Part shown: piece by piece, positions 19,761 to 62,705 of the stretch | Numbering within the stretch: position 1 is the stretch's first letter | Layout of the letters: every line of letters starts with the position of its first letter | Assembly (NCBI RefSeq): GCF_018882445.1 | Contig: NZ_JACVOM010000003.1 | Coordinates: 1 to 64,000 of the forward strand | Direction: 5' to 3' | Length of the DNA stretch: 64,000 nucleotides | From: Polynucleobacter sp. 15G-AUS-farblos | GTDB lineage: Bacteria; Pseudomonadota; Gammaproteobacteria; Burkholderiales; Burkholderiaceae | Position numbers and translations under genes: made by a program | Notes under the pieces: generated by a model | Seen by the model: the letters and a program-made list of their open reading frames with translations, nothing else | The model's database searches: none | Told to the model about the DNA's origin: nothing

Positions 19761-22121
19761 TCAGTCGATTGCAGCTAACTTAGCAATACTGAGCTGTAAC
19801 CACTTAACGCCGTGACGCTTGAAGCTCACCTGAGCTCTTGCATCGGCGTCCTTACCTTCCAAGCCGGTCACCTTGCCTTCACCAAACTTGGTATGAAAGA
19901 CATTTTGACCAATCTTAAATGGGTAATCTCCACGAGGTGGTGCAGCCATTCTTCTCACCTCAGTGGATGCCGAACCAATTCGCTTAGTTGGTCGCGAGCG
20001 ATCACTACCTGAGTCAAAAAAATCATTGGATTCATATTCGCGTTGGCGAGTGTAGCCATCTTGCCAAGTAGAGCCCGAGCGAGATTGACCACCCCATCTG
20101 GCATCTTTAGCCTTAGGCGTTAACCACTTCAAGGATTCTTCAGGCAATTCTTCTAAGAAACGAGATGGCATGTTGTAACGTACCTGCCCATGCAACATTC
20201 TGGACTGAGTATGGGAGAGATAGAGACGCTCTTTTGCACGAGTGATTGCTACGTACATCAGGCGTCGCTCTTCCTCTAAGCCATTTTGCTCATTCACACT
20301 ATTCTCATGAGGAAATAATCCCTCTTCTAAGCCGGTAATAAAGACCGAGGTGAACTCCAAGCCTTTGGCTGAATGAACTGTCATTAATTGCACCGCATCT
20401 TGCCCAGCTTGCGCTTGGTTATCACCAGCCTCTAAGGAGGCGTGAGATAGGAATGCCGCTAGCGGAGAAATCTCAATACCAGGATCATTTTCGCCAGGTA
20501 GCATGGCCGCTGCTGCATCTTGACCATAGCCTTCTTCGGCAATGAATGCAGTAGCAGCGTTGATTAATTCTTGTAAGTTTTCTACGCGGTCTTGACCTTC
20601 ACGCTCAGTCAAGTAATGCTGAATCAAACCGCTGTGCTGAATCACAAACTCTACCGTCTCGGGCAAGGTGTTGTGACGAGTTGCTTCACGCATATGATCA
20701 ACCAAGCGGACAAATCCACCCAAGGAAGCACCTGCCTTACCCTCTAAAGAAGAGGCTGCTAAATATAAAGAGCATTGTTGAGCTCTGGCAGCATCTTGTA
20801 AGGCTTCGATTGATCGCGCACCAATTCCGCGCGTTGGAAAATTCACCACACGTGAGAATGAGGTGTCATCATTTGGATTTTCAAGCAGGCGCAAATAAGC
20901 CAAAGCATGCTTAATCTCAGCGCGCTCGAAGAATCGCAAGCCACCGTAGACACGATAAGGGATACCAGCTGAGAACAAAGCATGCTCGATGATGCGGGAC
21001 TGAGCGTTACTGCGATAAAGCAGCGCAATTTCAGTGCGCTTAGTGCCGCTACTCACCAAAGCTTTGATCTCATCAACCAGCCATGCTGCTTCAGCATGAT
21101 CGCTCGGCGCATCGTAGATTCGAACTGGCTCGCCATGCCCAGCATCAGTTCGCAAGTTCTTGCCTAAGCGCTCAGAGTTATTTGCAATCAAATGATTGGC
21201 GGTATCCAGAATATGACCATGCGAGCGATAGTTCTGCTCTAGCTTCACCATCATGGGGTGATACTGCTTTTCATACAAACGCATATTTTCAACGTCGGCA
21301 CCACGGAAAGCATAAATACTTTGATCGTCATCGCCGACAGCAAACACGGAGCTACTGCCCATACCACTGACATTGACTCGACTTGCATCATGTCCAGAAA
21401 GTAATTTCAGCCAGGCGTATTGCAATGCATTAGTGTCTTGGAACTCATCAATCAGAATATGGCGAAATCGTTCTTGATAATGTGTCCGAATGGGCTCACT
21501 GTGTTTTAACAACTCATAACTACGCAAGAGTAGTTCGGCAAAATCAACTACCCCTTCTCGCTGACACTGCTCATCGTAGGCCGCATACAGTTGAGCCATC
21601 TTTGCCTGAAAGTCATCGCCAACCGAAAGATCCTTGGCGCGCTGCCCACGCTCTTTGGCGTGAGCAATAAAGTATTGCAATTGCTTCGGTGGATATTTTT
21701 CGTCATCCACCTTCAAACCCTTTAGGAGCCGCTTGATGGCCGATAGCTGATCTTGGGTATCCAAAATCTGAAAAGTGGATGGCAGACCCGCCTCTTTGTG
21801 GTGGGCTCGCAATAAGCGATTGCAAAGACCATGGAAAGTGCCGATCCACATACCCCGGGTATTGATGGGCAGCATCGCGCTTAGACGCAACATCATCTCC
21901 TTGGCGGCCTTATTGGTAAAGGTCACCGCCAAGACCCCAATTGGGGAAACTTGTCCGGTTTGGATGAGCCAAGCAATGCGGGTGGTGAGGACGCGCGTCT
22001 TTCCGCTACCAGCCCCAGCCAAAATTAAGGCGGATTGGGCTTGGCCATTTTCATTGACGGGCGGGAGGGTTACTGCCTCGCGCTGTTCTGGATTGAGGTT
22101 CGCGAGCAAGTCTGAGTACAT
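19761..22121 (-). CDS. uvrD: DNA helicase II (UvrD)
   Basis: Superfamily 1A 3'-5' helicase used in nucleotide-excision and mismatch repair. The 786-residue protein has Walker [13 protein letters not shown], motif II DEFQDTN, motif [17 protein letters not shown], motif IV QNYRSH and motif [11 protein letters not shown] with [12 protein letters not shown]. The C-terminal Tudor-like segment ([14 protein letters not shown]) binds RNA polymerase in UvrD and PcrA. There is no Shine-Dalgarno; a TATAAT box ends 7 nt before the ATG. Divergent from valS. Confidence 0.95.
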
Positions 22122-22127
22122 CGTCCC

Positions 22128-22137
22128 AATTATAATT
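22128..22137. promoter_or_regulatory. Palindromic bidirectional -10 box between uvrD and valS
   Basis: The palindrome AATTATAATT contains TATAAT on both strands (plus 22131-22136; minus 22134-22129) within a 24-nt divergent gap. The plus hexamer ends 9 nt before the valS ATG and the minus one 7 nt before the uvrD ATG. Start points would be about 22143 and 22122, giving leaders of 0-3 nt on both sides. Neither gene has a Shine-Dalgarno and no good -35 is seen. Confidence 0.5.
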
Positions 22138-22145
22138 TGCCTCTT

Positions 22146-25037
22146 ATGCCAAATGCCTCAAATACCCCTAATTCTCCAGCGACCAGCTCGGTAGACGAAC
22201 TCGCCAAATCCTACGAACCAGCCCCCATTGAAGCCTACTGGGGCCCTGAGTGGGAGCGCAGAGGAATTGCTGATGCCAGTATGGATGAGGGCAAAGGTGA
22301 TTTTTCGATTCAACTGCCTCCGCCCAATGTCACCGGCACCCTCCACATGGGTCATGCATTTAATCAAACCATCATGGATGGCTTGGTACGTCATGCCAGG
22401 ATGTTGGGTAAAAATACCTTATGGGTACCAGGTACTGATCATGCCGGTATTGCAACTCAAATTGTGGTGGAGCGCCAGCTTGATGCTCAAAAGATTTCTC
22501 GTCATGACTTAGGTCGTGAAAAGTTCCTAGAAAAAGTCTGGGAGTGGAAAGAAACTTCTGGCAACACGATCACGCGCCAAATTCGTCGTCTAGGTGCATC
22601 GATTGATTGGGGCAAAGAGTATTTCACGATGGACAGCAAAATGTCCAAAGCGGTGGTGGAAGTATTTGTGCGCCTTCACGAACAAGGCTTGATTTATCGC
22701 GGCAAGCGTTTAGTGAACTGGGATCCCGTATTGGGCACTGCCGTTTCTGATCTCGAAGTAGTGAGTGAAGAAGAAGACGGATCGATGTGGCATATCCGTT
22801 ACCCATTAACCGATGGCTCAGGCTCCTTAACTGTGGCCACTACCCGCCCTGAAACCCTGCTGGGTGACGTTGCCGTTATGGTGAACCCAGAAGATGAACG
22901 CTATAAGCATCTCATTGGCAAATCGGTAAACCTACCTTTATGCAATCGAGAAATTCCGATCATTTCCGATGACTATGTTGACTTAAACTTTGGAACTGGC
23001 GTTGTCAAAGTAACGCCTGCACATGACTTTAATGACTATGCAGTGGGTCAACGTCATCAGCTTCCTTTGATCAATATCCTCACACTAGATGCCAAAATTA
23101 ATGAAAATGCTCCGGCCGCTTATCAAGGCATGGAGCGTTTTGCTGCGCGCAAACAAGTAGTTGCCGATCTTGAATCTGCTGGCTTGCTAGAAAAAGTACA
23201 GCCTCATAAGTTGATGGTGCCGCGCGGCGATCGCACGCAAACGATCATTGAACCGATGCTTACAGACCAGTGGTTTGTGGCGATGTCTAAGCCAAGTCCA
23301 GATAATCAATATCAACCTGGCTCATCCATTGCTGGCGCAGCTCTAGACGCTGTTACCAAAGGTGATATCAAACTGGTCCCAGAAAACTGGATCAATACCT
23401 ATACCCAGTGGCTAGCAAATATTCAAGACTGGTGCATCTCACGCCAACTGTGGTGGGGCCATCAGATTCCAGCTTGGTACGGAGATGATGGACAAATCTT
23501 TGTAGCACGTTCGGAAGAGGATGCGAAAGCTCAGGCTGTTAAAGCAGGGTACACCGGCCAACTTAATCGCGATCCAGATGTATTAGATACCTGGTTCAGC
23601 TCTGCATTGGTACCTTTTAGCTCTCTGGGTTGGCCTGAGAAAACGCCTGCGCTGGAACACTTCTTGCCATCATCGGTCTTGGTGACTGGTTTTGACATCA
23701 TCTTCTTCTGGGTAGCTCGTATGGTCATGATGACCTGCCACTTCACCGGCAAGGTGCCCTTTCATACGGTCTACGTTCACGGTTTAGTGCGAGACGCCGA
23801 GGGTCAAAAGATGAGCAAGTCCAAAGGCAATACCTTGGACCCAATCGATCTGATTGATGGCATTCAAATTGAAGAATTGGTAGCTAAGAGAACCTCTGGA
23901 TTGATGAATCCAAAGCAAGCAGAAAGTATTGGCAAGAAAACCAAGAAGGAGTTTCCAGACGGCATTCCAGCTTTTGGTACAGACGCCCTACGCTTTACCT
24001 TTGCCTCTTTGGCATCGCTAGGTCGTAACATTAATTTTGATCAAAAACGCTGCGAAGGTTATCGTAATTTCTGCAATAAGTTATGGAATGCCACTCGCTT
24101 TGTTCTGATGAATTGCTCTGGCAGCGATGAAGAGAATGGATTTGCTCCTTGTGACAATCAATGTGGTCCGGATGGCTATTTGGACTTCTCTCCAGCAGAT
24201 AAATGGATTGTGTCGATCTTGCAAAAGACGGAAGCCGATGTTGCTAAAGGCTTTGAAAACTATCGCTTCGACAATATTGCTGGCAGCATCTATCAATTTG
24301 TCTGGGATGAATACTGCGACTGGTATTTGGAGTTAGCAAAGGTGCAACTGCAAACCGGCACCCCAGCACAGCAACGCGCAACTCGCCGCACCCTGTTGCG
24401 CGTGCTTGAAACCATTCTGCGCATGGCGCATCCTTTGATTCCATTTATTACCGAGACCCTTTGGCAAACTGTTGCTCCTAAAACCGGTAAAGATGTCTCT
24501 GCACAACTCAAGCAAACAATTGCGCTTCAACCCTATCCAATCGCCCAGCTTGAAAAAGTTGATGAACAAAGTGAAGCTTGGGTGGCTCAAATTAAATCGA
24601 TTGTCGATGCCTGCAGAAACTTGCGGGGAGAGATGCAAGTGCCCCCTGGTCAAAAAGTACCGCTATGGATTAGCGGACCGGAGGCTTTCTTGCAAAAGGC
24701 TACGCCTTATCTCCTAGCCTTAGCTAAATTATCTGAAGTCAAAATCTATAGCGACGAGTCTGCCCTGGAAAAAGATGCGCCTGGCGCCCCCATTGCCCTT
24801 ATAGGCGATCTAAAGCTCCTCCTCAAAATTGAGGTGGATGTAGCAGCTGAACGCATTCGCCTAGGAAAAGAAATTGAGCGTTTGGCTAATGAAATTCAGA
24901 AAGCCAGGGTTAAACTGACCAACGAAAGCTTTGTGGCTAGGGCCCCGGCTGAGGTTGTAGCCCAAGAAAAACAACGCCTTGCAGGCTTTGAGCAAAACCA
25001 CCAGAAGCTTGTTGCACAATTAGAGCGAATTAAATAA
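22146..25037 (+). CDS. valS: Valyl-tRNA synthetase
   Basis: Class Ia synthetase charging tRNA-Val. From the ATG at 22146 it has 963 residues. The HIGH-type motif is in [15 protein letters not shown], the editing (CP1) domain carries [13 protein letters not shown], the KMSKS motif is [13 protein letters not shown], and the C-terminal coiled-coil arm ([15 protein letters not shown]) typical of ValRS is present. A TTG three codons upstream is a less likely start. No Shine-Dalgarno. galU follows after 14 nt. Confidence 0.97.
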
Positions 25038-61668: not shown

Positions 61669-61698
61669 TTGATACGGATATTAACAGGCTCTTATAAT
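61669..61698 (+). promoter_or_regulatory. Strong miaA promoter candidate at the start codon
   Basis: TTGATA (61669-61674), 18-nt spacer, TATAAT (61693-61698). It is the best sigma-70 match in the window and ends only 5 nt before the miaA ATG at 61704, so the +1 falls on or next to that ATG. If translation instead starts at ATG 61731 the leader would be about 27 nt, also without a Shine-Dalgarno. Confidence 0.65.
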
Positions 61699-61703
61699 AG
61701 GGC

Positions 61704-62705
61704 ATGCAAACTGAACCCTACATTCAGCCTATGCAATCTCCAGAGCTGTTTTCAACGATTTGTATTGTTGGACCCACTGGCGCAGGCAAAACGCATCTCG
61801 CCATGTCATTGGCTGAATATGCAAAATCCATTGGCCTCACTGTTGAGCTCATTAGTATGGACTCTGCCTTGGTCTATCGCGGTCTTGATATTGGTAGCGC
61901 TAAACCCACTAAAGCAGAACAAGCCGCTGTCATCCATCACTTAATAGACATTCTGGATCCCACAGAAGTGTATTCAGCCGCCCGTTTTGCAAAAGATGCA
62001 AAACGATTGTGTGAAGAAATACGTATGCGAGGAAATATCCCCATCGTGGTCGGTGGAACCATGTTGTATTGGCGTGCTTGGGCACACGGCCTCTCTTCTT
62101 TGCCACCCGCAAACCCAGAGATTCGGGTTCGACTTGAAGAGCGAGCAAAGGAAATAGGATGGCCCGCGATGCACGAACGACTAGCTCAAGTAGATTCAGT
62201 GACGGCGAGTCGATTAAAACCAAATGATTCACAACGCGTGCAACGCGCCCTAGAAGTTTATGAAATCACTGGTAAACCTATGTCTAGCTTATTAGCTGAG
62301 TCACCCAGTGAAGACGGTCGTGAGGGATCAGCGATACCACCATGGATTCATTTAGTTTCTCTTGAGCCCAGTGATCGCGCTCGACTCCATCTCAATCTAG
62401 AAAAACGTTTTGATGTTATGTTATCTGGTGGCTTGATTGAAGAGGTAGAGCTACTCAAAAAAAATATTGGCCTGCATGCCGACCTTCCAGCGATTCGCTC
62501 AGTTGGGTATCGACAGGTTTGGGAATATCTTGACGGACAAATAGATCGAGAACAAATGCGCTATAAGGCTTTAGCTGCTACTCGTCAACTAGGGAAACGC
62601 CAACTCACTTGGCTCAGGGCAATCGCTGGTAGAAATACCTTTGACCCCTTCAATCCAGATGAATTGAAGGCGGCTTTAGACTATTGCAAACAGAACTTAA
62701 AGTAA
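61704..62705 (+). CDS. miaA: tRNA dimethylallyltransferase MiaA
   Basis: Transfers the dimethylallyl group of DMAPP to A37 of tRNAs reading UNN codons. The 333-residue protein has the P-loop GPTGAGKT (23-30), SMDSALVYRGLDIGSAKPT and VVGGTMLYWRA. It uses the product of the MEP pathway, whose dxs and ispH genes are in this window. TsaD, also in this window, modifies the same position in the other tRNA class. A second ATG at 61731 is possible as start. Confidence 0.96.
   Translation: MQTEPYIQPMQSPELFSTICIVGPTGAGKTHLAMSLAEYAKSIGLTVELISMDSALVYRGLDIGSAKPTKAEQAAVIHHLIDILDPTEVYSAARFAKDAKRLCEEIRMRGNIPIVVGGTMLYWRAWAHGLSSLPPANPEIRVRLEERAKEIGWPAMHERLAQVDSVTASRLKPNDSQRVQRALEVYEITGKPMSSLLAESPSEDGREGSAIPPWIHLVSLEPSDRARLHLNLEKRFDVMLSGGLIEEVELLKKNIGLHADLPAIRSVGYRQVWEYLDGQIDREQMRYKALAATRQLGKRQLTWLRAIAGRNTFDPFNPDELKAALDYCKQNLK

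Follow-up and report, generated by a model that had tools for sequence, protein, structure and literature searches.

The uvrD and valS genes of Polynucleobacter sp. 15G-AUS-farblos lie back to back in the 64,000-nucleotide stretch of contig NZ_JACVOM010000003.1 that we analysed as a whole (hereafter the window). Profile matches assign the minus-strand gene (19761-22121, 786 amino acids) to the DNA helicase II family, encoded by uvrD, and the plus-strand gene (22146-25037, 963 amino acids) to valine--tRNA ligase, encoded by valS. Their ATG codons, at 22121 and 22146, are separated by 24 nucleotides (22122-22145). This gap holds a perfect palindrome, AATTATAATT (22128-22137), whose core, the 8-mer ATTATAAT (22129-22136), is the union of two -10 hexamers overlapping by four bases (TATA): a TATAAT on the minus strand (22129-22134), 7 nucleotides from the uvrD ATG, and a TATAAT on the plus strand (22131-22136), 9 nucleotides from the valS ATG. 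An earlier note on this DNA had described such a gap, with a palindrome reading TATAAT on both strands, and its coordinates are confirmed. We propose, with a probability of about 0.8, that the gap is a single bidirectional promoter of the sigma-70 type, devoid of -35 elements, which feeds two (nearly) leaderless mRNAs and arose by merger.

When the first transcribed base is put seven positions past the final base of each -10 element, the predicted 5' ends fall at 22122 for uvrD and at 22143 for valS, that is, with leaders of 1 and 3 nucleotides, in agreement with the earlier note, which had placed both starts 0-3 nucleotides from the ATGs. The uvrD discriminator would be TGGGACG (22122-22128, minus strand), of which positions 22123-22125 vary among relatives, and TTGCCTCTT (22137-22145, plus strand) would be the discriminator and presumed initiation window of valS. 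Box-to-ATG distances of 7 and 9 nucleotides lie within the range used to recognize leaderless genes, a TANNNT about 6-7 (up to about 10) nucleotides before the start codon. Neither side shows the -35 hexamer 16-18 nucleotides upstream that a classical two-element sigma-70 promoter has, the best TTGACA matches at this gap being 1/6 for uvrD and 2/6 for valS. We found no extended -10 element at the gap, and a promoter scan of positions 21000-23200 predicted no site inside it. By inspection, no Shine-Dalgarno site precedes either gene: the valS side reads TTGCCTCTT and the uvrD side offers just a GGGA run.

Is this box maintained in the genus? The locus was matched in 149 of 151 Polynucleobacter genomes, our own included (G069 and G101 gave no match). 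We analysed 147 of them, leaving out G114 and G149, which had no listed coordinates; locus L111, which duplicates L025, was dropped. The 8-mer itself served as the anchor of the rows, and in each of the 147 genomes it sits between or beside the two genes. Gene starts were placed by tblastn projection. ATTATAAT is exact in 147/147 genomes and the full AATTATAATT in 142/147; the earlier note had named a lack of conservation of the palindrome among the outcomes that would refute its reading, which withstood this test. Changes per column were counted by the Fitch method on a FastTree phylogeny of the 144 genomes with both flanks (L213, L218 and L219, truncated at a contig end or at the edge of the retrieved stretch, were excluded). 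None of the eight core columns changed on this tree, including 22129-22130, which belong to the uvrD hexamer only, and 22135-22136, which belong to the valS hexamer only. The equal invariance of the private bases of each hexamer argues that both hexamers are used, and suggests that RNA is made in both directions.

The arrangement of the start codons around the box differs between lineages. A layout of 7 + 8 + 9 nucleotides, as in the window, is present in 118/147 genomes, and of the 145 genomes with a placeable valS start, 143 have it 6-9 nucleotides from the box, the exceptions being L154 (main clade, 21 nucleotides, valS ATG lost) and L169 (clade B, 35 nucleotides). In the 25 genomes of clade B, uvrD starts with a GTG 21-25 nucleotides from the box, which predicts a uvrD leader of 15-19 nucleotides; valS is 6-9 nucleotides away in all of them except L169, and the gap flanks are quite different around an identical 8-mer. 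Locus L114 carries six extra bases in the first uvrD codons (MYLYSD versus MYSD), with box and gap layout unaltered. On the valS side, TTGCCTCTT contains only pyrimidines from its seventh base to the ATG, the first purine being the A of the ATG, and the same stretch is free of purines in 133 of the 143 genomes with valS 6-9 nucleotides away (in two of these 133 it is empty, the ATG already lying at 6 nucleotides). RNA polymerase favours a purine as starting base, so the A of the valS ATG is the likely start point and the valS mRNA is, by this reasoning from sequence, likely to be truly leaderless.

A -10 element adjoining the start codon is a normal device in this genome. We sampled 361 kb (the window plus 15 stretches of contig C21), in which open reading frames were delimited mechanically and given their first ATG as start, which makes the starts approximate, and we counted as -10-like any hexamer matching TATAAT at 5 or more of its 6 positions. 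There are 21 such hexamers exactly 6 nucleotides before an ATG, versus 1.26 per offset (Poisson P about 1e-18), and 33 at 5-9 nucleotides among 323 starts, where about 6 are expected, an excess of 8.3%. Perfect TATAAT boxes within 80 nucleotides upstream of an ATG are at 5-9 nucleotides in 9 of 12 cases. The best -35 matches of the 33 promoters are close to those at random positions, and one of the 33 has an extended TG; promoters reduced to a -10 element thus look normal in this genome. One perfect TATAAT of the window (about 61670-61710) lies 5 nucleotides before an ATG and has a -35-like TTGATA 18 nucleotides further upstream; the two frames called divergent there overlap by 2 nucleotides.

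The possibility that this signature is a gene-finding artefact was tested by running the identical script on Burkholderia 8Y and Undibacterium, where the signal is much weaker. The excess amounts to 7.7% in G027 (clade B), 2.2% in Undibacterium, 0.6% in G068 and 0.3% in Burkholderia 8Y. Unlike our genome, the Burkholderia sample has a weak signature, with 2 hexamers at 5-9 nucleotides among 134 starts, 0.5 over background; Undibacterium has 8, or 3.6 over background. For TANNNT at 6 nucleotides, the first starts of transcription units give 23/167 in our genome, 9/71 in G027, 3/78 in G068, 4/96 in Burkholderia and 6/114 in Undibacterium, the last two being slightly raised. The leaderless habit is therefore stronger in our genome than in the controls and is not unique to it; nor is the signature uniform in the genus, since G068 (200 kb, L257-L266), at 1.0 over background, shows next to none.

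Outside Polynucleobacter, the same two genes point to an older arrangement. Among 28 named outgroup loci with both genes (Burkholderia, Paraburkholderia, Caballeronia, Cupriavidus and others), we examined 20, scanning 75 nucleotides from the uvrD start and 90 from the valS start, the latter taken as the most upstream in-frame ATG within reach and possibly off. The pair is again divergent, with larger gaps: 156-322 nucleotides in 17/20 loci, and 755 (L056), 914 (L043) and 1135 (L073) in the others. A TATAAT-type box (TATAAT or TATACT) precedes uvrD by 25-69 nucleotides in 15/20 loci and valS by 19-84 nucleotides in 17/20, and 14/20 loci have a separate box for each gene. Three loci have a box for valS only (L042, L048 and L049), one for uvrD only (L073), and L056 and L089 have none. 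Adjacency of the two genes may not be universal among relatives: of 170 loci searched, uvrD was not found beside valS in 40 of 80 named relatives' loci, some of them cut by contig ends. In a tree built from the UvrD and ValS proteins of 13 Polynucleobacter and 12 outgroup loci, the genus forms one clade divided into two sister clades.

The shared box thus looks like the product of a promoter merger. The ancestral state would have been a wider gap in which each gene had its own -10 box and a leader; in the ancestor of Polynucleobacter, the gap would have collapsed onto one box, making valS (nearly) leaderless, and in the main clade the uvrD leader would then have been lost. We regard this order of steps as the most economical history.

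A second gap of the same kind lies outside the window. Scanning the 361 kb for divergent pairs with -10-like hexamers (here at least 4/6) on both sides returned 8 candidates, and equivalent 200-kb scans returned 1 in G027, 1 in G068, 0 in Burkholderia and 1 in Undibacterium. One of the 8 has the same shared register as uvrD/valS: CAT-N6-AGTATACT-N9-ATG, at 245357-245385 of contig C21 (about 1357-1385 of L238), between a gene with a methyltransferase domain and a ComF-like gene with a phosphoribosyltransferase domain. In 50 of the 127 matching genomes (the 30 best and 20 chosen among weaker ones), AGTATACT is present with spacings of 6-8 and 9-10 nucleotides in 50/50, although this box was itself what the parsing sought, and the starts were picked by the same -10 criterion and lie 27 and 12 codons into the longest frames. 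In several distant genomes, this gap and the adjoining codons are the sole DNA that still matches. The second pair is also divergent in seven outgroup genomes, with projected gaps of 159-237 nucleotides, and two of these (L339 and L345) carry AGTATACT in the gap. Over the whole assembly, AKTATAMT followed by an ATG at 6, 7, 8 and 9 nucleotides yields 1, 1, 0 and 2 hits, and these four are the two sides of the uvrD/valS and methyltransferase/comF gaps.

Other short divergent gaps were seen on contig C21. Three of them (88996/89032, 224322/224358 and 264583/264621), of 35-37 nucleotides, hold two non-overlapping -10s of the leaderless type placed back to back. A fourth, of 22 nucleotides (326648/326671), has weak overlapping hexamers, TAAAGT and TAAACT, and is perhaps a third, poorer case of a shared register.

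With two such gaps at hand, one may ask whether they form a class. Genome streamlining could have produced a minimal promoter of 23-24 base pairs, in which a sole palindromic -10 abuts both starts, fuses the points where transcription and translation of the two genes begin, and acts as a mutually exclusive switch, with uvrD/valS and methyltransferase/comF as members, both kept in all genomes analysed. Exclusion itself would then be selected, for noise reduction or for a fixed ratio of products, beyond being a by-product of compaction. We regard this extension as unlikely.

A rival explanation, which we consider improbable, is that the box serves one gene only, most likely valS, the uvrD promoter lying inside valS and the second TATAAT being a by-product of symmetry. 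In clade A (118 genomes), the valS side is indeed the more conserved, with 0-3 changes per column at 22138-22145 against 2, 13, 15 and 6 changes at 22122-22125. However, positions 22129-22130, which are not part of the valS hexamer, show no change in 144/144 genomes, and a TATAAT by itself would not require the AT next to it. Moreover, a box stands 25-69 nucleotides before uvrD in 15 of the 20 outgroup loci and 21-25 nucleotides before it in clade B, from which it follows that use by uvrD may be the older of the two.

The palindrome could also be an operator for a dimeric regulator, its likeness to a -10 element being secondary. Perfect dyad symmetry and invariance across the genomes analysed would suit this view. 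Yet the assembly (2.2 Mb) has a single copy of AATTATAATT, which is therefore not one palindrome among many, both strands read exactly TATAAT, the spacing is typical of leaderless -10s, and the different 8-mer of the second gap, AGTATACT, can likewise be read as a -10 from either strand; we consider an operator very improbable. Hardly any weight is left for plain inertia of the sequence in so short a gap: both neighbouring genes are conserved, and at most two changes were counted in 10 of the 14 clade A gap columns outside the 10-mer, but columns 22123-22125 changed 13, 15 and 6 times close to the zero-change block, flanking third codon positions changed 23.6 times on average (144 genomes), none of 334 eight-column windows in the flanking coding DNA is invariant, and clade B keeps the same 8-mer between quite different flanks.

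Several observations weigh against the proposal of a bidirectional leaderless promoter. The invariant run exceeds the hexamers: over the 144 genomes, 22137 shows no change (22126, 22127 and 22128 show 2, 3 and 2, and 22138 shows 5), clade A taken by itself has none at 22126-22128 either, and the valS side is conserved past the box. The distances of 7 and 9 nucleotides differ from the genomic optimum of 6, the GGGA run before the uvrD ATG might act as a poor Shine-Dalgarno site if the transcript were longer, and seven genomes have an additional in-frame ATG 3 nucleotides past the box. The same-clade genome G068 keeps the gap and has 5 hexamers at 5-9 nucleotides versus about 4.1 expected (171 starts), a count with P = 0.0005 under the rate of our genome. 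The crude share of starts with a Shine-Dalgarno site, 0.24 in our genome versus 0.26-0.34 in the four other samples (Burkholderia 0.28, Undibacterium 0.34), shows no clear difference. As to the merger, the stretches scanned show only one box or none in 6 of the 20 outgroup loci, and the support for clade B is just 0.869 in the tree on which the order of steps rests. Finally, the literature that mentions Polynucleobacter together with 'transcription start sites' includes, judging by titles and abstracts, no start-site map.

The motif counts also belong on this side of the balance. AATTATAATT occurs 0.16 times on average in shuffled versions of the 64-kb window (16 of 100 shuffles contain it), and its reversed-pattern control has 2 sites in the assembly. 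The pattern ATTATAAT-N4-14-ATG is found in the assembly at this gap only, on both strands, where the reversed-pattern control gives 6 hits. Neither count is above its control, nor are those of AKTATAMT, with controls of 2, 4, 1 and 2 hits. Since controls equal or exceed the counts, these alone prove nothing, and the argument is carried by the conservation and by the fact that the two sites are paired within one gap.

The identity of the genes bears on what the promoter may control. ValS scores above its NCBIfam cut-offs; the mechanically called valS frame begins at an in-frame TTG at 22137, upstream of the ATG at 22146. The top match of UvrD is TIGR01075 (uvrD), with 944.5 bits, under the equivalog cut-off of that model (1144.45). 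A search of our genome for UvrD-helicase family members returned uvrD and one unclassified open frame of 1205 amino acids and nothing else, so a separate Rep helicase may be absent, in which case uvrD may matter more here than in E. coli. The earlier note had spoken of two essential mRNAs. This fits valS, whose product is essential, and overstates the case for uvrD, which is dispensable in E. coli, even though its essentiality in our genome is plausible from gene content.

How would such a promoter work? A single -10 that is a perfect palindrome, ATTATAAT, could be opened by RNA polymerase in either orientation. Each orientation would start transcription at a start codon, or 1-3 nucleotides from it, the resulting (nearly) leaderless uvrD and valS mRNAs would be translated without a Shine-Dalgarno site, and the box would be occupied by one polymerase at a time. 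Symmetric -10 elements that act as bidirectional promoters are indeed well described, as the earlier note had pointed out, in the portions of PMC12825309 and PMC10268837 used here, the latter citing Warman et al. 2021 on this subject. These portions report that a shared -10 element gives rise to start points on both strands, that 24% of such bidirectional promoters in E. coli lie between divergent genes, that two polymerases cannot bind simultaneously, that start points are commonly separated by 18, 10 or 23 base pairs, with small variations, and that the 18-base-pair type works by near-symmetry, with slight deviations from consensus. The uvrD/valS gap likewise has a single -10 element that can be read from either strand. 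Unlike the near-symmetric type, its register shares TATA and allows a perfect TATAAT on both strands; the start separation that it predicts is 21 base pairs (25 if both transcripts start at the A of the ATG).

The note had gone further, suggesting that polymerases compete for the box and tie uvrD and valS expression together. Its shared symmetric -10 for two (nearly) leaderless mRNAs finds support in the eight invariant bases and in the leaderless signature; competition and the coupling it would entail are unproven. By analogy, the E. coli data counsel caution at basal activity: according to sections of PMC12825309, the basal activity of five bidirectional promoters was insufficient for competition, which was elicited by strengthening one direction, with a decrease of the opposite transcript. 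A consensus -10 might be stronger than these E. coli cases, yet it has no recognizable -35 beside it.

The leaderless half of the arrangement also has precedents. In Deinococcus-Thermus, parts of PMC12340547 describe a TANNNT about 6-7 nucleotides before the open reading frame, with transcripts taken to begin at the start codon, and the -10 of uvrD/valS is similarly close to its start codons. Zheng 2011 (PMC3160421, in part) found 9 of 71 betaproteobacterial genomes to contain TA-led leaderless genes, at an average of 6.8% of genes; its main text does not mention Polynucleobacter. Unlike the systems that these two sources describe, the uvrD/valS motif would be shared by two divergent genes, and it belongs to a betaproteobacterium. 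Leaderless transcripts are reported in a related bacterium, Burkholderia cenocepacia J2315, but the uvrD/valS pair is not named in the portion of that source considered here (PMC4603805). Betaproteobacteria show a marked AT-rich bias before the starts of non-Shine-Dalgarno genes, which may, but need not, reflect leaderless mRNAs according to the authors, as far as extracts of PMC5397173 go.

The word 'leaderless' is absent from the main text of PMC12825309 and PMC10268837. Titles and abstract openings in the literature on leaderless genes combined with bidirectional, divergent or overlapping promoters, in which few subscription journals are covered, contain no case of one box for two leaderless genes, and those retrieved for divergent uvrD and valS contain no shared box. 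A full-text literature search for Polynucleobacter and leaderless genes returned nothing. The uvrD/valS gap also points to a leaderless habit in this common freshwater genus. Apparently descended from two distinct promoters, it would mark the extreme to which a promoter can be compacted, and it would be a natural setting in which to test how polymerases exclude one another when neither -35 elements nor leaders are present. Promoters with a symmetric -10 and genes without leaders both have precedents; what the uvrD/valS gap would add to them is a single box serving two (nearly) leaderless genes.

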